Source: Thermoproteota archaeon
Lineage (GTDB): Archaea; Korarchaeota; Korarchaeia; B14-G2
Length of the DNA stretch: 20,589 nucleotides
Direction: 5' to 3'
Assembly: GCA_003661385.1 (NCBI GenBank)
Contig: QMWA01000012.1
Coordinates: forward strand, 1-20,589
Part shown: in pieces, positions 1 through 20,589 of the stretch
How the letters are laid out: each line of letters starts with the position of its first letter
Position numbering within the stretch: the first letter of the stretch is position 1
Notes under the pieces: model-generated
Databases searched by the model: none
What the model was told of the DNA's origin: nothing
What the model saw: the letters and a program-made list of their open reading frames with translations, nothing else
Translations under genes and position numbers: made by a program

Positions 1-35
1 CCTACATCATCGCCATTAGTTTGTTGGGTGGGTGG

Positions 36-42
36 CTTTTAA
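36..42 (+). promoter_or_regulatory. Probable TATA box of the topoisomerase gene
   Basis: The stretch gcttttaag resembles the boxes in front of several other genes here (11443, 17276, 18688). A start site about 26 nt downstream would fall near 65, just before GTG 70 and ATG 73, giving an almost leaderless message. This argues against the longer in-frame start at GTG 43, which overlaps the box. Confidence 0.45.
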
Positions 43-69
43 GTGTTGGCATCTGGGCTGCAGTATGAT

Positions 70-2115
70 GTGATGTTTCTTGCTGAGAAGGGTAAGCAGG
101 CTGAGAGGATAGCTAGGGCTTTAGCTGATGGAGGAGTCTCTAGGAGGGGGGTTTATGGTGTTAGCGTGTTTGAGTTTGAGGTTGATGGGCTTAGGTGCGT
201 TGCTGTACCCGCTAGGGGGCACTTGTATGAGGTTTACTCTCCTGACCGTGGGTATCCTGTGCTTAGAATGGAGTGGAGGCCTGTTGCTGGGGTGAAGGAC
301 GCCCCCAGGTATATTAGAGCTATTGTGGAGCTCTATAGGAGGAGTAGGCGTGTTGTCGTGTGCACTGACTACGATATTGAGGGTGAGCTTATCGGAGGAA
401 ACCTGCTGGAGTACGCTATTGGAGTCAGGGATCTTGGGTCTGTTGACAGGATGAAGTTTTCTAGCCTGACTAAGGATGAGATCCAGAGAGCTTGGAGGAA
501 GCTCAGCAAGCTGGACTTGAACATGCTTGATGCTGGTAGAGCCAGGCATGAAGTTGACTACCTCTGGGGCATCTCCTTCTCTAGGGCTTTGATGACCGCT
601 TTGAAGCTGGCTGAGGGCTGGAGTAAGAGCCTTAGTGCAGGTAGGGTTCAGACTCCGATGCTGATTGAGGTTGTCCGGAGGGAGCTTGAGAGGCAGAGGT
701 TTAAGCCTAAGCCCTACTGGGAGGTCTACGCTACCATCCAGGTTCCAGGGGGTGTGCTGGAGGCTGCTTGCAGGCTTAACCCGTTTTGGAGCAGGGATGA
801 GGCAGAGGAGGCTTGTAGGAGGGCTTCTTCAGCAGGGTATGCCGTTGTAGCTGGCGTTGACAGGAGGAGGGTTAGGAGGAGGCCTCCTCCGCCATTTGAC
901 ACTACTGAGCTCCAGAGGGAGTGCTTTAGGCACTTCGGGCTTCCTCCTGATAGGGTTATTGAGGAGGCTGAGGCCATCTACCTGGCTGGAGCTATATCCT
1001 ACCCTAGGACTGATAGCCAGAGGTATCCTCCCGGCTTGGATCACAGGAAGGTGCTTAAGGGGCTTGCTTCAGCTGGCTACGGAGAGCTTGCTCGAAGACT
1101 GCTTGAGAAGAGGGAGCTTAAGCCTGTTGAGGGGAGGAAAGGTGGAGAGGAGAGCGCGCATCCAGCGATATACCCTACTGGAGTGAAGCCTGAGGGGCTT
1201 ACCAAGACTCAGATGAGGATATACGACCTGATAGTGAGGAGGTACATGGCTACTCTAGCTGACGACGCGATCAGAGAAACCGTCTCCATAAGGCTTGATG
1301 TCGGGGGAGTCGAGTTCAGGGCTACAGGCTCTAGGACTGTCTATGAAGGGTGGCTTAGGTACTATAGGCCTTATGCTGGGTTTGCTGAGGTTGAGCTGCC
1401 TAGCCTCAAGGCTGGTGAGAGGCTTAGAGTCGGTGAGGTGAAGCTTGAGGAGAAGGAGACTAAGCCTCCTCCAAGGTATACTCCAATGAAGCTTGTCCTC
1501 TGGGCTGAAGAAAACGGCATAGGGACGAAGGCCACCAGAGGAGAGATGGTGAAGAAGCTGCTTGATAGGGGATACGTTGTCAAGAAGGGAAGCCAGCTTG
1601 TGCCAACTCAGCTTGGGGTGAAGGTCGCTGAGGTCATTGAAAGCTACTGCCCTCCCTTGGCTAGCGTAGAGATGACTAGAGAGCTTGAAGGGAAGCTTCT
1701 GGGGATCCAATCTGGGGAGCTCAGTAGGAGTGAGGTCCTGAAGGAGGCTGCCTCCAGGGTTGAGGAGCTTGTTTACGAGTTTAACAGCAGGATAAAGGCC
1801 ATAGGTAGGAGCTTAGCTGAGGGAGTTAGGGAGTCCACTGGAGAGTACATTGGGGTATGTAGCAGGTGCGGGAAGAGGCTTAAGCTGATCAGGAGGAGAG
1901 ATGGGAAGAGGTTTATCTGGTGCACTACCAGAGACTGCACGTACTACCCTCTCCCCAGGAGGGGGAGGCTTAAGGTGCTTGACTACGAGTGCCCTAACTG
2001 TGGGCTTAAGGTGATCTCCGTCAGGGAGAGGAAGGGGAGATGGGTGCTCTGCGTTAAGTGTGGGCCTTGCTCCAGGTGTGCTAGGAGAGCTGAGTGCAAG
2101 AGCAGGTTTAAGTGA
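70..2115 (+). CDS. topA: DNA topoisomerase I, type IA (archaeal TopA)
   Basis: Relaxes negative supercoils by cutting one strand through a 5'-phosphotyrosine link. Numbered from GTG 70 (681 aa), the Toprim domain opens with the AEK glutamate (E6) and carries TDYDIEGE (D100, D102, E104, E106). The catalytic tyrosine is Y311 in ISYPRTDS. The tail has 11 cysteines: 597, 600, 618 and 623 form a complete C4 zinc finger; 641, 644, 661 and 664 form a second; 667, 670 and 676 are extra. There is no helicase domain, so it is not reverse gyrase. The frame stays open back to GTG 43, but the TATA-like box at 36-42 favours 70 or 73, and archaeal homologues begin close to the Toprim strand. The 3' end overlaps the convergent RNase J-like gene by 8 nt. 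Confidence 0.93.
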   Translation: MMFLAEKGKQAERIARALADGGVSRRGVYGVSVFEFEVDGLRCVAVPARGHLYEVYSPDRGYPVLRMEWRPVAGVKDAPRYIRAIVELYRRSRRVVVCTDYDIEGELIGGNLLEYAIGVRDLGSVDRMKFSSLTKDEIQRAWRKLSKLDLNMLDAGRARHEVDYLWGISFSRALMTALKLAEGWSKSLSAGRVQTPMLIEVVRRELERQRFKPKPYWEVYATIQVPGGVLEAACRLNPFWSRDEAEEACRRASSAGYAVVAGVDRRRVRRRPPPPFDTTELQRECFRHFGLPPDRVIEEAEAIYLAGAISYPRTDSQRYPPGLDHRKVLKGLASAGYGELARRLLEKRELKPVEGRKGGEESAHPAIYPTGVKPEGLTKTQMRIYDLIVRRYMATLADDAIRETVSIRLDVGGVEFRATGSRTVYEGWLRYYRPYAGFAEVELPSLKAGERLRVGEVKLEEKETKPPPRYTPMKLVLWAEENGIGTKATRGEMVKKLLDRGYVVKKGSQLVPTQLGVKVAEVIESYCPPLASVEMTRELEGKLLGIQSGELSRSEVLKEAASRVEELVYEFNSRIKAIGRSLAEGVRESTGEYIGVCSRCGKRLKLIRRRDGKRFIWCTTRDCTYYPLPRRGRLKVLDYECPNCGLKVISVRERKGRWVLCVKCGPCSRCARRAECKSRFK

Positions 2116-3427
2116 CCTCATAGCTTACTTCAGCGGCTACACTCACTACCCTAGAACCTAGGTTGCTCAGGTACTTCTCAGCTAGCTTGGGCTGAGGTGT
2201 GTGTATTGGATATATGTCTCTCGGCTTTATCTCAGCTATCTTCTCCCTGAGCTGGTGTGGTAGGATGTGGCCTGATGCGTGTATGTGGTAAAGGGGTAGC
2301 CCAAAGTGGTCTAGCCAGTTTAGGAGCTTTGTGAAGCTTACCTCAGACTCCTCGTCTATCGGCTCTGATGACGAGAGTATGTAGCAGCTTCCTGGCTTGG
2401 GCTTCATCTTCACCATGTCCTCGAAGTCGTAGAGCGAGGCAGCTACTATGAGGTCTCTCTGGCGAGCTGAGGCTTCTTCAGCTGAGACGGACTCGAATCT
2501 CTTGAGGACAGCCTGCTCCCAGCTCCTATAGACCTTCTTCACCCTCCTGTAGACTACTATGTCCTTGAGGAGCTCTGGCACACCTAGCTTGGGGTCCTGC
2601 TCGAGCTTAGCTAGGAGGTAGGCTTGCCTCATCGAGACCGCTACAGCTCTACCGCACTCCCTAGCAGCCTCTATGAAGGACCTCAGCCTATCTATGTCTG
2701 CTATGCTGAAGCTAGCTAGGACAAGCCCCTCAGCCCTTGAGACCACCTCCATGAGGCTCTCCTTGACCTTCTCCTCTGACGAGACCTCAGCTCCAGCTGT
2801 GTTCGTTGCCTCAGTTATCACCGCAGTTGGGTCAGCTCGCGCTGCTGCCTCGGTGAAGTCTTGGGTTAGCTGAGGCTTCGTGCCATGCGCTCTGAAGTCT
2901 CCTGTGTAGACTATGCTCCCAGCTGAGGTGTGGACTATTAGCCCATAGGAGCCTGGTGTAGAGTGGTCTACGTGCCAGGGCTCTACCTCAACTGAGCCTA
3001 TCTTCAGCCTGTCTCCTGTCCTGAACGTCTTGAACTCTATCCCAGTGAAGTCGAGCTCAAGCCTCCTTGGAGAGGTCTCTCCGAAAGCTGACAGCACTCT
3101 GAGCGTGGCTTCACCACAGTAGACTGGTATGCTCCTGTTGAGGAGTGATATGTACCCCGAGTGGTCTAGGTGCGGGTGGCTCAGGACTACTGCGTCAATG
3201 GGGCTCTCAGCTTCACCCACTCTGTAGAGCCCTTGGATCCTGGGTAGAACTCCCAGCTCGATTAGGCTGTCTATGCTCCTCGGAGTGAGGTATGGGTCAG
3301 CATAGAACCTCTTTCTCGATGTGAATGAGACGCCGAAGTCTAGCATCAGCTTCGTGTCGCCATCGCATACTAGTATCTTGTTCCCTCCTACCTCACCTAC
3401 TCCACCGTAGAATGTTATGGTTGGCAA
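2108..3427 (-). CDS. RNase J-like metallo-beta-lactamase-fold hydrolase
   Basis: 439-aa MBL-fold protein of the RNase J / beta-CASP-like group, probably a metal-dependent ribonuclease. Visible motifs: GGVGEVGGN at 8-16, SHPHLDHSG at 83-91 (zinc ligands H84, H86, D88, H89), VDHSTPGSYG at 153-162 (H155), YTGDFR at 174-179 (D177), and a late HASGH at 383-387 with H409 as the final histidine. The HASGH element is the usual C-terminal ligand region of RNase J. Length is close to archaeal RNase J. The start is TTG 3427, chosen because a strong Shine-Dalgarno (gggaggt) lies about 11 nt upstream. It follows the Ig-like membrane protein gene by 8 nt, so the two are probably co-transcribed. Nuclease activity and direction are inferred from the family, not visible here. 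Confidence 0.82.
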   Translation of the reverse strand: MPTITFYGGVGEVGGNKILVCDGDTKLMLDFGVSFTSRKRFYADPYLTPRSIDSLIELGVLPRIQGLYRVGEAESPIDAVVLSHPHLDHSGYISLLNRSIPVYCGEATLRVLSAFGETSPRRLELDFTGIEFKTFRTGDRLKIGSVEVEPWHVDHSTPGSYGLIVHTSAGSIVYTGDFRAHGTKPQLTQDFTEAAARADPTAVITEATNTAGAEVSSEEKVKESLMEVVSRAEGLVLASFSIADIDRLRSFIEAARECGRAVAVSMRQAYLLAKLEQDPKLGVPELLKDIVVYRRVKKVYRSWEQAVLKRFESVSAEEASARQRDLIVAASLYDFEDMVKMKPKPGSCYILSSSEPIDEESEVSFTKLLNWLDHFGLPLYHIHASGHILPHQLREKIAEIKPRDIYPIHTPQPKLAEKYLSNLGSRVVSVAAEVSYEVT

Positions 3428-3435
3428 GCTGAAGG

Positions 3436-4206
3436 CTAACCTCCCTTCTCTTCTCCACTAGGCTTCTGGGTGACTGAAACCTTGATTTCAGCTGAGCACG
3501 TGTCTATGCTATAGCCTCTCTTGAAGGCTGTAGCCCTTATGCTGATGGTCTTGGTTGCGTTCGGTGTGAAGCTCGCGTTCCACAGCGCAGTGTAGACCCC
3601 ATTCTCATCTGTGACCCCAGTCTCGTTGTGCACCTCCCCCTCGTCTGCTACTATCCTCACGTTCACGCCCTTTAGTGGGGACCCTGTGAGCTTGTTGACG
3701 ACTTTCACCTGGATTGTGACCGTGAAGTTTGCTGTCGTGTTCGCTTCGACCTCAGCCTCTAGCTCGGTTTGGGAGAGCTCCATGGTGGCGTCGAGCTCAG
3801 CCCAGATCACGGTGAAGAAGGACTCCTCTAGGTACCTTCTTCCACCAGAGTTCCACTCTACTCGGATGCTGTGCAGGCCTATCGAGTACTTTCCCTCCTC
3901 AGCCTTGAACTCGAGTTCATAGGGGCCTAGGCCTCCTGGGAGGGTTGTGGACTCCAGTGTCCTGTTCGACACGTACTCGTATACCTCGACTCTTATGTCT
4001 GATGTCGGTGGCTCTAGCAGCCTTATCTTGACCCTGTAGCTTTGGGTTAGCCTGACTATGTTCGGCCTACATCCTTCAGCTAAGACCTCCACCTCAGCGC
4101 GAGGCTTCTCAGCTAGCAGTAGGGGCGCTACCAGCAGTACTATGCACACTGCTGCAGCAATTGCGACAGATGCAGCTAGCTTCCTGTCCTCTCTGAGCTT
4201 CTCCAT
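3436..4206 (-). CDS. Membrane-anchored surface protein with Ig-like domain
   Basis: 256 aa with an uncleaved N-terminal anchor: a charged start (MEKLREDRK) followed by a hydrophobic helix at about 11-32; the rest should face outside. The extracellular part is beta-rich with several NxT/NxS sites. Near the C-terminus (about 165-245) it carries the pattern of a bacterial Ig-like / Big_1 domain, with GSPLKGVNVRI, then TDENGVYTALW, and a following beta strand. No enzymatic motif is visible. ATG 4206 is 34 nt downstream of a TATA-like box (ttaaaatacc on the plus strand), giving a short leader. It is first in a two-gene unit with the RNase J-like gene; a functional link between the two is not obvious. 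Confidence 0.75.
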   Translation of the reverse strand: MEKLREDRKLAASVAIAAAVCIVLLVAPLLLAEKPRAEVEVLAEGCRPNIVRLTQSYRVKIRLLEPPTSDIRVEVYEYVSNRTLESTTLPGGLGPYELEFKAEEGKYSIGLHSIRVEWNSGGRRYLEESFFTVIWAELDATMELSQTELEAEVEANTTANFTVTIQVKVVNKLTGSPLKGVNVRIVADEGEVHNETGVTDENGVYTALWNASFTPNATKTISIRATAFKRGYSIDTCSAEIKVSVTQKPSGEEKGG

Positions 4207-4234
4207 CCTGGCACCTGCTCCCCTGCTGCTAGCT

Positions 4235-4260
4235 GGTTAAAATACCTTAGGTTTAAGTAC
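4235..4260. promoter_or_regulatory. Divergent promoter region (surface protein / egsA)
   Basis: Two offset AT-rich boxes lie in an otherwise GC-rich 83-nt gap. ggttaaaatacc (4235-4246), read on the minus strand, is about 34 nt from ATG 4206. ggtttaagtac (4250-4260), read on the plus strand, is about 35 nt from TTG 4290. Both spacings fit a TATA box plus a leader of roughly 8-9 nt. Confidence 0.5.
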
Positions 4261-4289
4261 TCAGAGGCAGCAGCCTGAGTAGTGGTAGC

Positions 4290-5372
4290 TTGGCGCTAGA
4301 GCACTTCCAGATTCCAAGGTATATCCTGTTTGGGCCTGAGGCTCTAGAGCAAGCTCCGCAGGCTCTTACTAAGATAGGGCTTAGGGGCAAGGCTCTCGTG
4401 ATATCTGGAGGAGGCGCTACAGCTAAGATAGCAGACAGGTTCTGTAGCATACTCGAGGACAGCAGGGTTGAAGCCTCCAGGTTCACTGTTGAGAGCAGGA
4501 TAGCTGATGTAGCTGAGGTCCTTGAGGCAAGTAGGGTTGCTGAGAGAGAGAAGACGAGGTTCGTCTTAGCTGTTGGCGGAGGTAGGATAATAGATGTCGG
4601 GAAGCTTGTGGCAGCAAACCTAGGGCAGCCCTACGTGAGCGTCCCGACCTCAGCTAGCCACGATGGGATAGCCTCTCCCTCAGTGTCGTTCCTGCTTAAG
4701 AGGAGCGCCATGAAGGCCGGGATCGATGTCAGCAGGCTTACACCTCCTCTTGGGATAATAGCTGACACCAAGGTCATATCCAGTGCACCTCCCATAACGT
4801 TCAGGTCAGGGTGTGGAGACATCTTAGCCAAGGTGACTGCTATCAGAGACTGGAAGCTAGCTCACAAGCTGAAGGGCGAGAGGTATAGTGAGTATGCTGC
4901 TGCCATATCAAGGCTCAGCTTCGACTTAATCAAACAGCATGCACATGAGCTTAAGCCTGGTGAGGAGAAGAGCAGCAGGCTCCTGGTCAAGACACTGATA
5001 GGCTCAGGGGTCGCCATAGGCATAGCAGGGTCCTCTAGGCCTGCTAGTGGCTCAGAGCACATGTTCTCACATGCATTAGACCTACTTTCAATGAGGGAAG
5101 GCTATAGCCCGGCGCCACACGGGATACAGGTAGCGCTCGGTACTATAATGATGGCCTACCTGCATGAGCTCGACTGGATGGAGGTCAGGAGGCTAGCTAA
5201 GGCCATAGGGCTCCCTGTCACTGCTAGGGAAGCTGGGATACCCTCTGATCTCGTTGTAGAGGCCCTGACTATGGCTCACAGGATCAGGAACAGGTACACC
5301 ATACTGGGTGAGACAGGGCTGACGAGAGAGGCTGCAGAGGAGCTTGCTAGAAGCACCATGGTCATAGACTGA
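4290..5372 (+). CDS. egsA: Glycerol-1-phosphate dehydrogenase
   Basis: Reduces dihydroxyacetone phosphate to sn-glycerol-1-phosphate with NAD(P)H, the committed step for the archaeal ether-lipid backbone. The 360-aa length is typical. Visible motifs: nucleotide-binding AVGGGRIIDVGK (94-105), the family signature SVPTSASHDGIASP (117-130), and zinc ligands D177 (GCGD), H257 (SEHMFSH) and H277 (APHGIQV). The start is TTG 4290, the first in-frame start after the TATA-like box at 4250-4260. The gene stands alone and converges on the Yip1-like gene with an 11-nt overlap. This is the strongest single indication that the source is archaeal. Confidence 0.95.
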   Translation: MALEHFQIPRYILFGPEALEQAPQALTKIGLRGKALVISGGGATAKIADRFCSILEDSRVEASRFTVESRIADVAEVLEASRVAEREKTRFVLAVGGGRIIDVGKLVAANLGQPYVSVPTSASHDGIASPSVSFLLKRSAMKAGIDVSRLTPPLGIIADTKVISSAPPITFRSGCGDILAKVTAIRDWKLAHKLKGERYSEYAAAISRLSFDLIKQHAHELKPGEEKSSRLLVKTLIGSGVAIGIAGSSRPASGSEHMFSHALDLLSMREGYSPAPHGIQVALGTIMMAYLHELDWMEVRRLAKAIGLPVTAREAGIPSDLVVEALTMAHRIRNRYTILGETGLTREAAEELARSTMVID

Positions 5373-6030
5373 GGGCCACTATGGCAGCTAGCCTCCCGAG
5401 GGTGTAGCCGAGCAGAGAGGCTAGAGCAAAGGCTACTGCCTTGGACAGCGGGAGCCTGTGTACCACTCTACCTCCAAAGCCTGCTGTGAACCCCATCCAG
5501 CCTGTGAAGAAGAATGAGAGCATCGCTGCAGCTCTGAGGAGGGGTTCTTCCAGTATCCTGGCAGCTATCTTAGCTCTGATCTCTTCTAAGGCGAGCTGTG
5601 TGGTTGTGCTCTCAACCACCACGGTGACGCCCCCAGATATAGCTGAGTAGGCTATTGAGAGCAGGTAGTATGGTATCAGGGCGCTCAGTGAGGCTAGGGT
5701 TATCGAAGCTGTATCTCTCAAGCTTCCGTACCCTCCGAGGACTACAGCTACAGTGTGTGCTAGAGCTGTGGCGAGAAGCCAGCCCACAGGGAGAGCTAGA
5801 GTCGAGGCTATAGCCTCTCTAGCTCGAGCTCTGCTGACTTCAGCTACAACTGTGCTTGGGACTGATGGGGTGAACTCCACAGACACCAGGGTGTAGGATA
5901 CTGCTGTCGAGGCTGCTGCCAGAGCTGAGGCCAATATGAGCACTCGGATGCACTCCCTGAGCATATCTCTGCTCCTCATCTCCTCGAAGAGGCTGCGTGG
6001 GCTAGCCAGCACCCTAGCTACTACCCTCAT
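5362..6030 (-). CDS. Yip1-like polytopic membrane protein
   Basis: 222 aa from ATG 6030, with about five hydrophobic segments (roughly 27-49, 75-98, 108-132, 164-184 and 194-220). The N-terminus VLASPRSLFEEM resembles the start of Yip1-domain proteins, in which a short phrase with Pro and Phe precedes the first helix. The function of prokaryotic Yip1-domain proteins is largely unknown, and the assignment rests on this motif and the topology. The frame stays open to 6111, but that would run through the promoter and the start of the divergent nitroreductase; ATG 6030 lies downstream of the shared TATA box, so it is preferred. The 3' end overlaps egsA. Confidence 0.65.
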   Translation of the reverse strand: MRVVARVLASPRSLFEEMRSRDMLRECIRVLILASALAAASTAVSYTLVSVEFTPSVPSTVVAEVSRARAREAIASTLALPVGWLLATALAHTVAVVLGGYGSLRDTASITLASLSALIPYYLLSIAYSAISGGVTVVVESTTTQLALEEIRAKIAARILEEPLLRAAAMLSFFFTGWMGFTAGFGGRVVHRLPLSKAVAFALASLLGYTLGRLAAIVALSL

Positions 6031-6063
6031 GGCTCTCAGTCTGGTGTGGATGCCTCTGGCAAG

Positions 6064-6075
6064 AGTTATAAAAGC
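6064..6075. promoter_or_regulatory. Shared divergent TATA box (Yip1-like / nitroreductase)
   Basis: The sequence gttataaaagct reads as a TATA box on both strands. Going right, ATG 6101 is about 32 nt from its centre. Going left, ATG 6030 is about 39 nt away. No second AT-rich box is seen in the 70-nt gap. Confidence 0.5.
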
Positions 6076-6100
6076 TTGAGCATCTGTCTTGGGGCTCAGG

Positions 6101-6589
6101 ATGGATGTCAAGGCTGCAATAGAGGCTAGGAGAAGCGTGAGGTCTTATGTGGCAGGCTACAAGCTCTCTGATGAGGAACTTAAGGCTCTCATGAGAGCAG
6201 CTCAGCTAGCCCCCTCAGTCAAGAACATCCAGCCATACTACTTCATTGTAGCTGTGAGCGATAGGGTGAAGAAGAGGCTCTCTGAGGCAGCTTGGGAGGC
6301 CTCCTTCATAAGAGATGCGTCAGCAATCTTCGTAATAGTCGGTAGGCCTAGAGACTCACCTTGGTACAAGATCGATGCGGCGATAGCAGGAGAGCACATA
6401 GTTCTTCAAGCTGTTGAGCTTGGGCTTGGCAGCTGCTGGCTTACAGCATTCAGCAGAGACCTCATAAAGAGCATACTGGATATACCGCCTGAAGAAGACG
6501 TTGTGGCGATGATAGCAGTGGGCAAGCCAGCGGAGCACCCGCCTCAGGTCCCGAAGAAGCCTGTGGAAGAGCTCTTCAAGGTAATATGA
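6101..6589 (+). CDS. Nitroreductase-family flavoprotein
   Basis: 162-aa FMN-dependent oxidoreductase of the nitroreductase superfamily; the physiological substrate cannot be read from the sequence. Hallmarks: an N-terminal IEARRSVRSY (about 7-16, phosphate-binding arginines), APSVKNIQPYYFIV, AGEHIVLQAVELGLGSCW in the helix-turn region, and a C-terminal VVAMIAVGKPAE. It is at the short end of the family, like many archaeal members. TTG 6089 is possible, but ATG 6101 fits the TATA box better. It overlaps the radical SAM gene by ATGA (4 nt), so the two are probably translationally coupled. Confidence 0.88.
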   Translation: MDVKAAIEARRSVRSYVAGYKLSDEELKALMRAAQLAPSVKNIQPYYFIVAVSDRVKKRLSEAAWEASFIRDASAIFVIVGRPRDSPWYKIDAAIAGEHIVLQAVELGLGSCWLTAFSRDLIKSILDIPPEEDVVAMIAVGKPAEHPPQVPKKPVEELFKVI

Positions 6590-7695
6590 TGAGGAGCGTG
6601 TTCACGGTCAGAGCGACCCTACATGTCACGCTGCTGTGCCCTTACCCAACTAGGCTAGAGCTGTACTCTGGGTGCAGCCACTCGTGTGTGTACTGCTATA
6701 GGAGCTGGGTTAAGCGTGTCCCAGCTGTCTCTCCTGAGCTAGCTGAGAGAGCCTTGAGGAAGGTTGCTGAGAGGCTTGGTGAGGTTCCTGTCCCAGTTAG
6801 GCTCTCAACTCTAGCTGACCCGCTTCAGCCTGCTGAAGCTAGGCGGAGAAGAACGCTGAGAGCGCTCGCAGCTCTGAGGAAGCTTAGAGCTCCAGTGATA
6901 GTGAGCACAAAGAGCAGCCTAGTGGCTGAAGAGCCTTACTTAAGCTTGTTGGCTGAGATGGCTGACGAGAGGCTTGCTGTAGTCCAGGTGACAGCGAGCC
7001 TGCCCCCTGATGCAGCAGCTAAGCTTGAGCCGGGTGCACCTGGGGTGGCTGACAGAGTGCATGCAGTTAGAGAGCTCAGTAGAGCTGGTGTGCCGTGTGC
7101 TCTTAGGCTCCAGCCATATGTCCCTGGTGTGAGCGACAGCTGGCTCACTGAGCTGGTTAGCATGATGCTTGATGCTGGAGTCAGGCATGTTATAGCAGAT
7201 GGGCTTAGAGCACCAACTGAAGCGGAGCTTAGGAGGGTTTATAGAGCTGTTGGAGCTGACGTCCCCAGCGTCTTCACGAGCTCCGGTGCTGGAGCTCTCG
7301 TAGCTAGCAGAAAGAGGCTAGCTGAGGTGTTCTCAGCTGTAGCAGAGACGTGCAGGAGAAAGGGTGCTTCCTTCGCCACATGCAAGACTGGGCTGCTGCA
7401 GCTGCATACCACCCAGGACTGCTGTACAGGAGGGCTTATAGACGCCTGTAGGAGGCTTACGATGGTTGAGGTCTACTTCACATCTAGGAGGCTTGGTAGA
7501 GAAGTAGAGCTCAGCGAGTCGCTTGGAGAGAAGGTTCTACAGGGGACTGAGCTCTCAGGGACCCCCTTGGACATGAGTAGGCACTACAGGAGGCTTGTCA
7601 AGCTCTGGAGCCAACCCGATAGGGTTAGGGCTGCTACAGGCAGCCTCATCTACGTGGATGGGAGGTATGCTGCAGCTGAGGTGCTAGCATGCTGA
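6586..7695 (+). CDS. Radical SAM protein, SplB-like
   Basis: 369 aa. The CxxxCxxC cluster of the radical SAM superfamily is at C30, C34 and C37 (GCSHSCVYCY), early in the chain as in COG1533/SplB-like proteins. A TIM-barrel-like middle follows, including LSTLADPLQPAE, VIVSTKS and a LEPGAPGVADR / LRLQPYVPGV pair shared with the second radical SAM protein at 10431-11441. Extra C-terminal cysteines (C256, C266, C279, C280, C288) could bind another cluster. The photolyase activity of bacterial SplB should not be assumed. Start ATG 6586 (or 6589) overlaps the nitroreductase stop, and the 3' end overlaps the permease by 7 nt, giving a three-gene operon. Confidence 0.8.
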   Translation: MMRSVFTVRATLHVTLLCPYPTRLELYSGCSHSCVYCYRSWVKRVPAVSPELAERALRKVAERLGEVPVPVRLSTLADPLQPAEARRRRTLRALAALRKLRAPVIVSTKSSLVAEEPYLSLLAEMADERLAVVQVTASLPPDAAAKLEPGAPGVADRVHAVRELSRAGVPCALRLQPYVPGVSDSWLTELVSMMLDAGVRHVIADGLRAPTEAELRRVYRAVGADVPSVFTSSGAGALVASRKRLAEVFSAVAETCRRKGASFATCKTGLLQLHTTQDCCTGGLIDACRRLTMVEVYFTSRRLGREVELSESLGEKVLQGTELSGTPLDMSRHYRRLVKLWSQPDRVRAATGSLIYVDGRYAAAEVLAC

Positions 7696-8603
7696 TCTTA
7701 GCTACTGCCCTGCTGATATCATTTGCAGTAGGCTCCTCAGATGAGAGCATGGCTGTCCCCGTCGGCTTTACTCGCAGAAAGGCAGCTGTTCTTGTTGGAG
7801 CCCTCATGGCTGCAGCTGGCGCCATGGCTTCAGGCGAGGCTGTTGAGCGCATGCTCGGAGCTAAGCTCTACACTAGGCCGCTTGGCAGAGTGGAGCTTGA
7901 GACAGTGGGGCTTGTCTCATCTGCCCTCATAGTCCTGTTCGCGCTGCTTGGAGTACCCCTCTCTACAGCTCAGGTGGTTACTGGAGCAGCTATAGGAGCT
8001 GGGCTCAGGAGCATAAGCCTCCCTGAGGTAGCTAAGCTGGCTTTAGCCTGGTGTATGCTCCCAGCTGCCAGCTACACGCTGGCTTACCTAGCTGGAGCTA
8101 AAGTACTCAAGGCTGTGAGAGCGTACTCGCGTGGGAGCTTAGCTAGGAGGACTGCAGCTGAGCGAGGAGCTCTCATAGCTTCATACCTTGCCTCGCTGCT
8201 CCTGGCATTTGCTAGAGGGGGGAACACCATAGGGCTTGGTAGCTTTCTCGCCATAAGGGAAGTTGGAGGGGCTGGTAGAGCCTTGTGCGCTGCTAGCATG
8301 GCATTAGGCGTAGCGCTGGTCTCGAGTAGGGTGGCTACTTCGCTTGGGCTTGATGTCATGAGCTTTCCTCCCAGTGTAAGCTTGGCTTTCATGCTTCCTC
8401 CGCTTGTGCTCCTCCATGTGATGACTGCAGCTGGAATCCCCGTCTCAACTTCTCAGCTACTGCTTCCAGCTATGCTAGGTGCAGCCAGAGCGTCTGGCAT
8501 AAGGACTAACGTCGAGATTACTGTGAAGATGCTTTCAGCTTGGGTTGCGTCTGTCCCGCTGGCTGCGACATGCTCTTACGCTGTCGCTCTCACCCGACTC
8601 TGA
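7689..8603 (+). CDS. PiT-family (inorganic phosphate transporter-like) permease
   Basis: 304-aa, strongly hydrophobic protein with an internal duplication typical of PiT permeases. The repeated signatures GVPLSTAQVVTGAAIGAGL (88-106) and GIPVSTSQLLLPAMLGA (249-265) match the PiT 'P-[LIV]-STS/TQ' element. The classical GANDVANA motif that precedes each in phosphate transporters is degenerate: GSSDESMA near 15 and RGGNTIGL near 176. Uptake of phosphate (or another oxyanion) is therefore inferred with reserve. It is the last gene of the operon. Its 3' end overlaps, tail to tail, a DUF47/PhoU-like gene, the usual partner of PiT genes. Confidence 0.78.
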   Translation: MLILATALLISFAVGSSDESMAVPVGFTRRKAAVLVGALMAAAGAMASGEAVERMLGAKLYTRPLGRVELETVGLVSSALIVLFALLGVPLSTAQVVTGAAIGAGLRSISLPEVAKLALAWCMLPAASYTLAYLAGAKVLKAVRAYSRGSLARRTAAERGALIASYLASLLLAFARGGNTIGLGSFLAIREVGGAGRALCAASMALGVALVSSRVATSLGLDVMSFPPSVSLAFMLPPLVLLHVMTAAGIPVSTSQLLLPAMLGAARASGIRTNVEITVKMLSAWVASVPLAATCSYAVALTRL

Positions 8604-9261
8604 CTGCGATGAGCTTGAGGACGTCAGCTGAGTCCTCGCAGAAGTCTGATATCTTCTCCACGTTTTCTAGCAGCTCTCTGAGGAGCACTGCCTTAACTGG
8701 CTTCAGGTCCATTTCTGAGAATGACTCTAGGAGGGACATGTACTCTATATCACATACTCTCTCAAGCTCCTCAACCCTCCTTATCCCCTCCAGGCTTCTG
8801 CGTACATCTTCCTCCAGGAGCTCCACGCTCTTCTCCAGCTCCCTTATGCAGCTCAGTGTGAGCTCCATGAGCCTTCTTATCTTAGGATACAGCCTTCTGC
8901 AGACTTCTCCCATCTTCAGAACAGACAGCAGCCTTCCTGCGTCGTGTATCCCGTCGGTTATCATGTCCAGTATCCTCATGAGCCTTATCATGTCCTGCCT
9001 GCTTAGTGGTGGAGGCACACCCCTGACTGTAAGCTGCTCCATGGTTTCTCTCCTGAGTGTATCTGCTTCACTCTCTATGAGGTGCAGGAGCTGGAGCCTC
9101 TCATAGGCCTCCTTCTCCCTGCCTGCTGCAGCGTGATCTAGCATCTCTATGAGCGCCTCCATTGCCTTGATGCTGTACTTCACGTGAGTAGCCATGTACT
9201 CCATCGGCTCTAGGTGGCCTCTCAGCCCAAGGGCCTTAGCTAGCCTGCTTATCAGCCGCAT
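8590..9261 (-). CDS. DUF47 / PhoU-like phosphate transport regulator
   Basis: 223-aa all-helical protein of the DUF47 (TIGR00153) family, distant from PhoU, usually linked to PiT transporters. Metal-binding-type acidic motifs are visible: LIESEADTLRRE (E63, E65, D67), ILDMITDGIHDAGR (D99, D103, D107) and a C-terminal ENVEKISDFCEDSADVL. Length is typical for the family. ATG 9261 overlaps the end of the CinA-like gene by 26 nt, so it is the last gene of a minus-strand operon. The convergent overlap with the PiT-like gene (14 nt) keeps the two genes adjacent but not co-transcribed. Confidence 0.85.
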   Translation of the reverse strand: MRLISRLAKALGLRGHLEPMEYMATHVKYSIKAMEALIEMLDHAAAGREKEAYERLQLLHLIESEADTLRRETMEQLTVRGVPPPLSRQDMIRLMRILDMITDGIHDAGRLLSVLKMGEVCRRLYPKIRRLMELTLSCIRELEKSVELLEEDVRRSLEGIRRVEELERVCDIEYMSLLESFSEMDLKPVKAVLLRELLENVEKISDFCEDSADVLKLIAVRVG

Positions 9262-10069
9262 GGTGGTGTACTACCTCTACTCTTCCACCCTCCTCCTCAA
9301 GGAGCTTCCTCAGCTTTTCAGCTGCCCTCTCAGCTTCCTCAGCAGCCTCCTTTAGGGACTCGGATCTGGATATCAGGTGTATCTCCAGGACCGGCTTCCT
9401 CTCCTCTCCCTTGGGGTGCGACTTCACGTATACTCTCCTGTGCTCTCTCACAACACGCTCTATGTGAGGAGCTGCAGTGGACTCCATTACACCAGCTACC
9501 TTCAGCACCACCCTAGCAGTCTTCAGCCCGCCCTTGGACTTGAGGACTGGAGCTATGCTTTCCTCGAATATTGCCTTCATCTCCCTCGGAACCCCTGGGA
9601 GAGCGACTATAGTCACCTCACCAGCCTCTACGATGACACCTGGCGCTGTCCCAGCTGGGTTTGGGAGAGGCCTCGCTCCCTCTGGTAGCGTAGCCATTTT
9701 CACTCGCTCCCTAGTCAGCTTTATCTCCCTGCCAGTTTCCCTAGAGTAGCTCTCATACTTCCTCCTGACCATGTCTAGGGCTTCGCTGTTGAGCTCGAGC
9801 TTCCTGCCTAAGGCGTATGCCACTGCCTCCAGCGTTTTGTCGTCGAATGTGGGGCCTAAGCCTCCTGAGAGCACTATCCAGTCTGCTCCCCGCTTGATCG
9901 CCTCTCTTATAGCTGAGGCTATCTCCCCTATGTCATCGCCTACAGCAGTGTACCTCCTGACCACGAACCCTAGCTCGCTTATCCTCTTAGCAAGCCAAGC
10001 TGCATTCGTGTTGACTACTGTCCCGTCTAGGAGCTCGTTTCCGACTGTGATTATCTCGAAGACCAGCAT
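9236..10069 (-). CDS. CinA N-terminal / MoaB-type domain protein (COG1058)
   Basis: 277-aa stand-alone CinA-type competence/damage-like domain of the molybdopterin-binding (MoCF) fold. Motifs: GNELLDGTVVNTNAAWLAKR (about 11-30), SGGLGPTFDD (68-77) and NPAGTAPG (137-144). The C-terminal NMN-deamidase domain of bacterial CinA is absent, as usual in archaea; the role may be nucleotide-adduct hydrolysis or pterin-related and is unproven. The frame is open to GTG 10078, but ATG 10069 is preceded at good distance by ggtga, a Shine-Dalgarno-like element inside the end of the upstream gene. The extreme C-terminus has a run of three histidines (VVHHHAADK). It lies between the small conserved gene and DUF47. 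Confidence 0.88.
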   Translation of the reverse strand: MLVFEIITVGNELLDGTVVNTNAAWLAKRISELGFVVRRYTAVGDDIGEIASAIREAIKRGADWIVLSGGLGPTFDDKTLEAVAYALGRKLELNSEALDMVRRKYESYSRETGREIKLTRERVKMATLPEGARPLPNPAGTAPGVIVEAGEVTIVALPGVPREMKAIFEESIAPVLKSKGGLKTARVVLKVAGVMESTAAPHIERVVREHRRVYVKSHPKGEERKPVLEIHLISRSESLKEAAEEAERAAEKLRKLLEEEGGRVEVVHHHAADKQAS

Positions 10070-18977: not shown

Positions 18978-19589
18978 TTGAGAGTTGTATCAGTGGTGGG
19001 GGATAAGGGCAGTGGGAAGACTCAGCTGATAGAGGAGCTCATCAGGAGGATGGTGCAGAGAGGGCTCAGAGTAGCTACAGTGAAGTGCACGCACCTTGAG
19101 AGGTTTGACATAGAGGGTAGAGATACCTTCAGGCACAGGAGCATGGGGGCAGCTGCCACAGTAGGCATAGGCAGAGAAGAAACCCTGATAATGCTGCCGA
19201 AGATGAGGGCTAGAGAAGTCTTGAAGAGGCTTCCTCCAGTTGATGTAGTCCTCATAGAGGGGTGTGGTGAGGAGCCTTACCCTAAGGTCGTTGTGAAGCC
19301 CTACTCCAGGGAGGTTAAGGGCGAGGTCATAGCTGAGTGGGAGAAGGGAGCTGATGTGGGCTACGTACTGGAGAGGGTGCTGTCAGCAGAGCTCAGGGAC
19401 AGGCTTATAGTTGAAGTAGATGAGAGGGAGATACCGCTGAACCCCTTTGTGAGGAGGGTCCTCAGAGAGGTTATAGTAGCCTTCCTATCCAGCTTAAAGG
19501 GGTTTGACAGGGAGTTTGGTGAAGTGGTCATAAGGATACCTGGGGTCAGAGGAGAGGTGGAGGAGAGTACTCCCCGTAAACCTCCCTGA
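18978..19589 (+). CDS. mobB: MobB-like molybdopterin-guanine dinucleotide biosynthesis P-loop protein
   Basis: 203-aa GTP-binding adaptor for guanine dinucleotide attachment to molybdopterin (or tungstopterin). Motifs: Walker A GDKGSGKT (8-15), VATVKCTHLERFDIEGRDT (about 32-50) with the MobB-typical D44 and D49, FRHRSMGAAATV, and Walker B-like VVLIEGCGEEPYPK (90-103). Typical MobB is about 165-175 aa; the extra C-terminal 30-40 residues include NPFVRRVLREVIVAFLSSLKG. The start is TTG 18978, the only sensible start before the first strand, with a weak ggtg 7-10 nt upstream. The last 44 nt overlap the convergent mutase gene, so the basic C-terminal tail (STPRKPP) is encoded antisense to it. Confidence 0.87.
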   Translation: MRVVSVVGDKGSGKTQLIEELIRRMVQRGLRVATVKCTHLERFDIEGRDTFRHRSMGAAATVGIGREETLIMLPKMRAREVLKRLPPVDVVLIEGCGEEPYPKVVVKPYSREVKGEVIAEWEKGADVGYVLERVLSAELRDRLIVEVDEREIPLNPFVRRVLREVIVAFLSSLKGFDREFGEVVIRIPGVRGEVEESTPRKPP

Positions 19590-20589
19590 GGACATCAGAT
19601 ATCTCACCTATAGTGCAGTATACTTTGACTGCATCTATGACAGCTGGAACAATGTTCTCACCCTTCTCTGCTGCCTTTTTTAGCTGCTGTAGTGCTTTCT
19701 GTACTGCTTTCTTGTCTCTCTTCTCCTTCACCTCCCTCAGCCTCTTTAGCTGCTTCTCCTCTACCCTCGGGTCTACTCTGAAGACTGGGACTTCTACCTC
19801 CTCTTCCTCAGTGAACATGTTCACTCCAACAACTACTTGCTCACCACTCTCAATCCTCTTTTGCTCTTCGTAGGCTGCTTCAGCTATAGCACGCTGAGGA
19901 AACCCCAGCTCAACAGCTCTGGTCATGCCACCAAGCTCCTCAACCCTATAAATCAGCTTCCAAGCACGCTCCTCAACCTCATCAGTAAGCCACTCCAAAA
20001 AATAGCTACCACCCAAAGGGTCAACAACATCACAAACACCACTCTCAAAAGCAATAACCTGCTGAGTCCTCAAAGCAACCCTAACAGCCTCCTCACTCGG
20101 CAGACACAGCGCCTCGTCTAGGCTGTTTGTGTGTATTGATTGTGCTCCTCCTAGTGCTGCTGCTAGTGCTTGTAGTGTTACTCTTATTATGTTGTTTTGT
20201 GGTTGTTGTGCTGTTAGTGTTGCTCCTGATGTTTGTACGTGGAATCTTAGCCACATGCTTCTTGGCTTTTTTGCTTTGAACCATTCTTTCATTATTTTTG
20301 CCCACATTCTTCTTGCTGCTCTGAACTTTGCTATTTCTTCGAAGAAGTTTATGTGTGATGCGAAGAAGAAGCTTAGCCTGCCTGCGAACTCGTCTACCTT
20401 TAGGCCTCTCTCAAGGGTTTTCCTAACGTACTCTATGCCATCTGCTATGGTGAATGCTAGCTCCTGAACAGCGTTGGCGCCAGCCTCCCTAATATGGTAG
20501 CCACTAATGCTAATAGGATTCCACCTAGGCAAAAACCGGCTACAAAACTCAATAACATCAACACAAACCTTAACACTAGGCTCAGGAGG
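19546..20589 (-). CDS. mcmA: Methylmalonyl-CoA mutase large subunit (5' end beyond window)
   Basis: C-terminal 347 codons of the B12-dependent mutase catalytic subunit, which interconverts (R)-methylmalonyl-CoA and succinyl-CoA. The frame is open to the right edge: VKVCVDVIEFCSR leads into PRWNPISISGYHIREAG, a mutase signature, so the TTG at 20532 is not the start. Other signatures are RFHVQTSGATLTAQQPQNN (active-site His and Gln) and HTNSLDEALCLP, then DPLGGSYFLE. The chain ends without a B12-binding domain, so a separate small subunit is expected, as in other archaea. Reading frame and protein are intact. Synonymous codon use is strikingly mosaic: 20119-20376 almost wholly A/C-ending, 19921-20118 and 20491-20589 almost wholly G/T-ending. 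Confidence 0.93.
   Translation of the reverse strand, partial: PPEPSVKVCVDVIEFCSRFLPRWNPISISGYHIREAGANAVQELAFTIADGIEYVRKTLERGLKVDEFAGRLSFFFASHINFFEEIAKFRAARRMWAKIMKEWFKAKKPRSMWLRFHVQTSGATLTAQQPQNNIIRVTLQALAAALGGAQSIHTNSLDEALCLPSEEAVRVALRTQQVIAFESGVCDVVDPLGGSYFLEWLTDEVEERAWKLIYRVEELGGMTRAVELGFPQRAIAEAAYEEQKRIESGEQVVVGVNMFTEEEEVEVPVFRVDPRVEEKQLKRLREVKEKRDKKAVQKALQQLKKAAEKGENIVPAVIDAVKVYCTIGEISDVLREVYGEYSPPPLL

Follow-up and report, generated by a model that had tools for sequence, protein, structure and literature searches.

A silent, strand-directed codon mosaic in a korarchaeal methylmalonyl-CoA mutase gene and in HdrA2 paralogues with a near-identical internal segment

How can a gene be written in two almost exclusive sets of synonymous codons that replace one another within a single codon, while the protein stays intact and family-like across the switches? 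This question is raised by the window analyzed here, a stretch of 20,589 bp that is the entire contig C12 of a 206-contig MAG (1.74 Mb, 91% complete). Because the window is the whole contig, the mutase gene at its right end runs off the sequence at position 20589. The part present matches TIGR00641 (1.2e-166 across profile positions 180-524) and covers positions 176-512 of PF01642.

The mutase mosaic and its distribution

A direct recount on the minus strand reproduced every third-position number given for the mutase in the original prediction. From 20376 down to 20119 there are 86 codons, 6 of them Met or Trp, and the other 80 end in A (60), C (18) or G (2, both AAG) and never in T. From 20118 down to 19921, 3 of 66 codons are Met or Trp, and the other 63 end in T (34), G (24) or C (5) and never in A; at 20589-20491, with 33 codons including 1 Trp, the remaining 32 end in T (22), G (6) or C (4). 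Third positions are mixed in 20490-20377 and 19920-19546. The one-codon width of the switch at 20118/20119 was likewise recovered, the adjacent 30-codon windows differing by 1.00, the maximum possible. Given the amino-acid-specific codon usage of the genome, 41.7 +/- 4.0 A- or C-ending codons would be expected among the 80 of the A/C block, where 78 are observed, and 30.7 +/- 3.7 among the 63 of the second G/T block, where 5 are observed; the mutase mosaic far exceeds chance. Three-state segmentation assigned codons 0-36 to the T state, 36-71 to background, 71-158 to the A state and 158-234 to the T state, followed by background, so that the G/T and A/C blocks stood as first described but their limits were amended, the first G/T block reaching to about 20482 and the second to about 19888 (Table 1). 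Two plus-strand antisense ORFs (19837-20121 and 20129-20467) abut the border at 20119/20118; since G/T at third positions alone leaves a codon-aligned antisense frame free of stops, these ORFs are a by-product of the bias and no evidence of genes.

Table 1. Coordinates of the mutase mosaic, the HdrA2 gene carrying the same mosaic, and the strong skew tracts
Feature	Location	Strand	Basis and remarks
Methylmalonyl-CoA mutase catalytic (N-terminal domain) subunit, 3' part	19546..20589	-	347 codons plus stop; cut by contig end
G/T block 1 (T dialect)	20482..20589	-	Third positions and three-state segmentation, codons 0-36; begins beyond contig end
Mixed spacer, codon use like genome	20377..20481	-	Third positions and segmentation
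A/C block (A dialect)	20119..20376	-	78/80 choice codons A- or C-ending; four-fold sites A in 25/25
Border from A/C block to G/T block, one codon wide	20118..20119	-	Third positions
G/T block 2 (T dialect)	19888..20118	-	Down to 19921, 58/63 choice codons G- or T-ending; four-fold sites 19 T, 2 G, 2 C
3' remainder of gene, ordinary mixed codon use	19546..19887	-	Third positions and segmentation
Heterodisulfide reductase HdrA2 (copy X)	C43, L167:6130-8115	-	NF040770 1.8e-301, though under model cut-off
Strong skew tract	L174 (C50) 3207-9861		
Strong skew tract	L222 (C78) 16-3856		
Strong skew tracts	L220 (C76) 1059-1991 and 6576-7932		
Strong skew tract	L225 (C81) 3719-5322		

Third positions were then followed in sliding windows across the mutase gene and ~1.14 Mb (65%) of the genome, comprising 1,118 ORFs, as well as 400 kb of Korarchaeum cryptofilum and ~100 loci from other genomes, with contrast measured as the difference between adjacent 30-codon windows. 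The comparison set contains no further genome of the host's family; the comparison genome, a single contig of 1,590,757 bp from the host's class but a different family, is presumably that of K. cryptofilum OPF8. The largest contrast was 1.00 in the mutase and 0.80 in the heterodisulfide reductase gene HdrA2 on contig C43, against at most 0.67 in any other gene of this genome that was scanned; K. cryptofilum peaked at 0.53 and the loci from other genomes at 0.63. Clear alternation is confined to the mutase and HdrA2 among the 1,118 ORFs, and it is absent from the 400 kb of K. cryptofilum and from ~100 mutase homologues; the scans of the genome and its relatives rule out an ordinary genome-wide codon habit, as had been anticipated. 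The companion statement that the other genes are mixed held for most of those scanned but failed for HdrA2 on C43, which carries the same mosaic. A weak G/T-to-A switch near noise level was also seen at the 3' end of a single-copy secretion-type ATPase gene on C54 (L178 8591-8700, minus strand). A literature search for within-gene codon mosaics found no matching description.

Near-identical segments in HdrA2 and in the mutase

In HdrA2 on C43 (copy X), segmentation yielded A blocks at codons 183-207, 248-282 and 330-362 and T blocks at codons 207-229 and 296-330, with background on both sides. Copy Y, assumed to be one gene split between C188 (5' part) and C193 (3' part), shares with copy X a protein identity of 0.59 before codon 158, 0.99-1.00 over codons 183-361 and 0.51 after codon 362. 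All five blocks lie inside the shared segment of ~200 codons, the last A block ending at codon 361/362, the point at which X and Y diverge, and both paralogues carry the mosaic in this segment; the few silent X/Y differences within it indicate that these are separate sequences and not one sequence read twice. With copy Y taken as one gene, a near-identical internal tract between strongly diverged flanks on both sides is the signature of ectopic gene conversion, as in concerted evolution, and we take homogenization between the HdrA2 copies as shown by these comparisons. A third paralogue, on C21, was rejected as a conversion partner of copy X, the two sharing 67% nucleotide identity throughout and an even protein identity of 0.63-0.66. 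About 10 HdrA paralogues or pieces occur in the bin (L244, L270, L274-L281), an indication that this korarchaeote has several electron-bifurcating complexes.

The 5' part of the mutase gene occurs twice, on C21 and C95, with different upstream genes; the copies are 98% identical over 258 bp, and the match opens ~10 bp ahead of the start codon. In both, a G/T block of ~17 codons is followed, after mixed third positions, by a 49-codon A/C block, and the two copies differ at only 4 sites, all by transitions. The segment at 19546-20589 is present once in the assembly, and its duplication is therefore deduced from the 5' part; homogenization between copies is likely for the mutase. Among dispersed, non-dovetail segments of near-identical protein-coding sequence in the scanned genome, the mutase and HdrA2 families stand out, the other repeated sequence consisting of contig-end overlaps, a tandem repeat, ~86-bp repeats and one 69-bp repeat. 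The mosaic is found in both shared-segment families, with no clear case outside them in the scanned part, and thus appears restricted to segments that are near-identical between copies, fully so for HdrA2 and for the 5' part only in the mutase. The coincidence of the end of the mosaic with the end of identity in HdrA2, plus the position of the 5' mutase blocks in duplicated sequence, links the mosaic to homogenization between copies.

The same comparisons bear on whether the mosaic is an artefact of assembly or engineering, which we consider very improbable. The MAG has 206 contigs with strain overlaps, and both the mutase and the second HdrA2 copy sit at contig breaks; against this, the 5' mosaic of the mutase is common to two contigs and that of HdrA2 to two paralogues, with small differences, the two vocabularies share almost no k-mers able to mislead an assembler, and the protein is intact and family-like in a sequenced environmental archaeon. 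Independent contigs that share mosaics make a chimeric assembly, one of the causes originally put forward, unlikely.

Silent-site vocabulary and a gene conversion model

The composition of four-fold sites narrows the possible causes. The original description of the mosaic as silent and strand-directed was supported, but C-to-T plus A-to-G changes on one strand, to whose outcome each block had been likened, do not suffice. In the A/C blocks, four-fold sites bearing A or C have A in 58/60 cases, where 28.4 would be expected from transitions alone, and in the G/T blocks those bearing T or G have T in 46/49 cases, where 24.7 would be expected. Deamination restricted to transitions would leave such sites divided between A and C, or between T and G, in line with whether each had been a purine or a pyrimidine, whereas the observed sites are nearly pure. 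Leucine is CTA in 13/13 cases in the A/C blocks, and in the mutase A/C block arginine is AGA in 6/6 cases and 13/15 Lys, Glu and Gln codons end in A, against ~18% genome-wide. The share of A or T at four-fold sites is 0.89-1.00 in the mutase and HdrA2 blocks; in the other skewed tracts A makes up 0.46-0.81 and T 0.42-0.79, with one tract of 6 sites at 0.33. This A-only or T-only vocabulary sets the mutase and HdrA2 apart from all other skewed tracts. The excess of A and T at four-fold sites thus calls for a further preference, for T over G on the G/T strand, which could arise from same-strand G-to-T changes or from selection or biased repair in favor of A and T. G-to-T is the usual outcome of guanine oxidation, and on the same exposed strand it would complete the pattern.

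Evidence from the other codon positions is divided between the two genes. Codon position 2 of the mutase falls below that of every one of 101 homologues in both G/T blocks, and position 1 does so in the second block only, with amino-acid replacements that include Tyr to Phe, Ala to Cys and Val to Leu; in the HdrA2 blocks positions 1 and 2 are unshifted and third positions alone are changed, which together give mixed support for a cause at the DNA level. The restriction to third positions in HdrA2 is what would be expected from codon selection in both enzymes, for example through zones of fast and slow translation or a property of the mRNA, and codons that end in A or C form Watson-Crick pairs with U34 and G34 tRNAs. 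We give this explanation little credence, however, as the mosaic is missing from homologues in ~100 genomes, the coincidence with the converted segment would be left unexplained, and synonymous shuffles of the 669-nt mutase stretch have the same predicted folding energy as the sequence itself (z 0.20 within blocks and -0.46 across blocks), which also argues against RNA secondary structure as such. No complementarity was found between the A/C and G/T blocks; the only matches were self-matches in the mutase A/C block and in one HdrA2 A block, with no clear meaning.

The reading that we tentatively favor, at somewhat less than even confidence, is that repeated homologous exchange (gene conversion) between nearly identical copies of gene segments has left the blocks as its footprint at silent sites, under a strand-specific bias that reverses at fixed points. 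One strand would be repeatedly exposed, damaged or re-copied at fixed points inside the shared segments, and on this strand C would go to T, A to G and G to T where the change is silent, or repair would prefer such outcomes. The affected strand would swap at each border, so that a border would separate codons ending in T or G from codons ending in A or C, and conversion would spread the resulting sequence to every copy. Purifying selection would purge most amino-acid changes, so that almost only silent sites would reach the extreme state. The bias could stem either from mutation of an exposed displaced strand or from biased mismatch repair during conversion, and we infer that homogenization itself generates it. 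Conversion and mosaic are connected by correlation in two gene families, and conversion may simply have copied a mosaic that arose in another way. Conversion normally copies existing sequence, whereas here synonymous vocabularies alternate, and we know of no conversion that creates such alternation. As a general property, homologous exchange in this archaeon would carry a near-deterministic, strand-specific silent bias (T over G over A/C on one strand), flipping at fixed initiation points and writing converted segments in two alternating dialects; such strand-asymmetric biased gene conversion would be previously undescribed, and we regard this wider claim as doubtful though possible.

Recombination is the best supported of the three causes first suggested, in the form of homogenization between paralogues more than of the patchwork of differently biased alleles then envisaged. 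In such a patchwork, donors of uniform A or T type would have been recombined in, one donor piece per block, and the result spread between copies. The sharp borders, the intact protein, the spacers with ordinary codon use and the demonstrated recombination between copies are in keeping with this history, but it appears unlikely, because two unrelated genes would each have had to undergo several short exchanges, homologues lack such a dialect, and no donor of either pure vocabulary was found among 84,980 genomes (best relatives at 70% protein identity), in viral contigs or in the phylum. Neither was an original, un-recoded close relative found in the searched sets, nor did viral contigs yield a source for either the mutase or the recoded words. 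Far-fetched by comparison is a selfish nuclease drive, in which conserved gene segments recoded to resist cutting convert all unrecoded copies: recoded segments common to paralogues with diverged flanks would fit, but alternating pure vocabularies are not predicted and no nuclease or mobile gene was recognized among the neighboring genes, as judged by name from their translations.

The favored conversion model shares features with known recombination-associated processes. In yeast, strand-coordinated mutation clusters switch strand at a break (PMC6786661) and single strands are hypermutable in break-induced replication (PMC6765108). Such clustered mutation, whether as kataegis or through break-induced replication or resection (PMC6786661, PMC6765108), likewise involves one-strand changes along a stretch and a strand switch at a point; the present case differs in its long-term saturation of silent sites, A-only or T-only four-fold sites, blocks of 70-260 bases and opposite polarity at the sharp mutase border. 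That border runs from A/C to G/T, 5' to 3', opposite to bidirectional resection (C-to-T on the left and G-to-A on the right of the top strand), and both polarities are present among the HdrA2 borders; we therefore claim no particular recombination intermediate. The mutase suggested that sharp borders run from A/C to G/T and diffuse ones the other way, as for outward synthesis at a break, but HdrA2 codon 330 does not conform to this rule. GC-biased gene conversion also ties directional fixation of silent variants to recombination, but it raises silent GC, whereas GC3 is 0.30 and 0.45 in the blocks against 0.59 in the genome, so that there is no bias towards GC.

If the mosaic is limited to exchanged segments, the start of recombination and the differently treated strand would be readable directly from sequence, in archaea, where hotspots are hardly known. 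Silent-site composition is usually taken to reflect regional mutation bias or translation, and codon-usage outliers need not imply foreign origin.

Kilobase skew tracts and strain variation

The genome also carries kilobase-scale keto/amino strand-skew tracts whose sign is independent of gene direction, the strongest lying on C50, C78, C76 and C81 (Table 1). Silent-site residuals correlate between opposite-strand genes, and intergenic DNA tracks the skew of flanking genes (r = 0.42), neither being the case in K. cryptofilum. At 1-394 the window is 88% identical to a second allele on C98 (L241), and at 24/33 transitions the window has G or T (p = 0.014). In this region (1-394 and 54-1482) the topoisomerase gene has a G/T-rich tract, and the dovetail between the ends of C12 and C98 is 88% identical, whereas most other long overlaps reach 97-99%. 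The abundance of such tracts and the excess of G/T-directed transitions in the topoisomerase tract (24 vs 9) favor the view that the mosaic is ordinary strand-asymmetric mutation made extreme in short patches. We nevertheless judge this quite unlikely, given that the tracts are mixed at four-fold sites, unlike the mutase and HdrA2 blocks, and do not flip every 70-260 bases within a gene; the tracts and the mosaic may share a cause or only a tendency.

In replication strand asymmetry, the leading strand is enriched in G and T, and one strand is keto-rich at third positions, as here; its constant sign over many kilobases is not seen, the sign flipping several times within one gene, for example at 20119/20118. 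Chimeric assembly, RNA structure and replication skew all fit the mosaic poorly.

In contig-end overlaps that are 97-98% identical (L030/L044, L029/L043, L173/L182 and L028/L029), transitions account for 31/32 differences, which suggests mixed strains and a strong transition bias. Finally, a nitroreductase-like ORF on C81 (L225:4377-5111) has an extremely G/T-rich coding strand by which its protein is seemingly pushed towards W, C, G, F and V.
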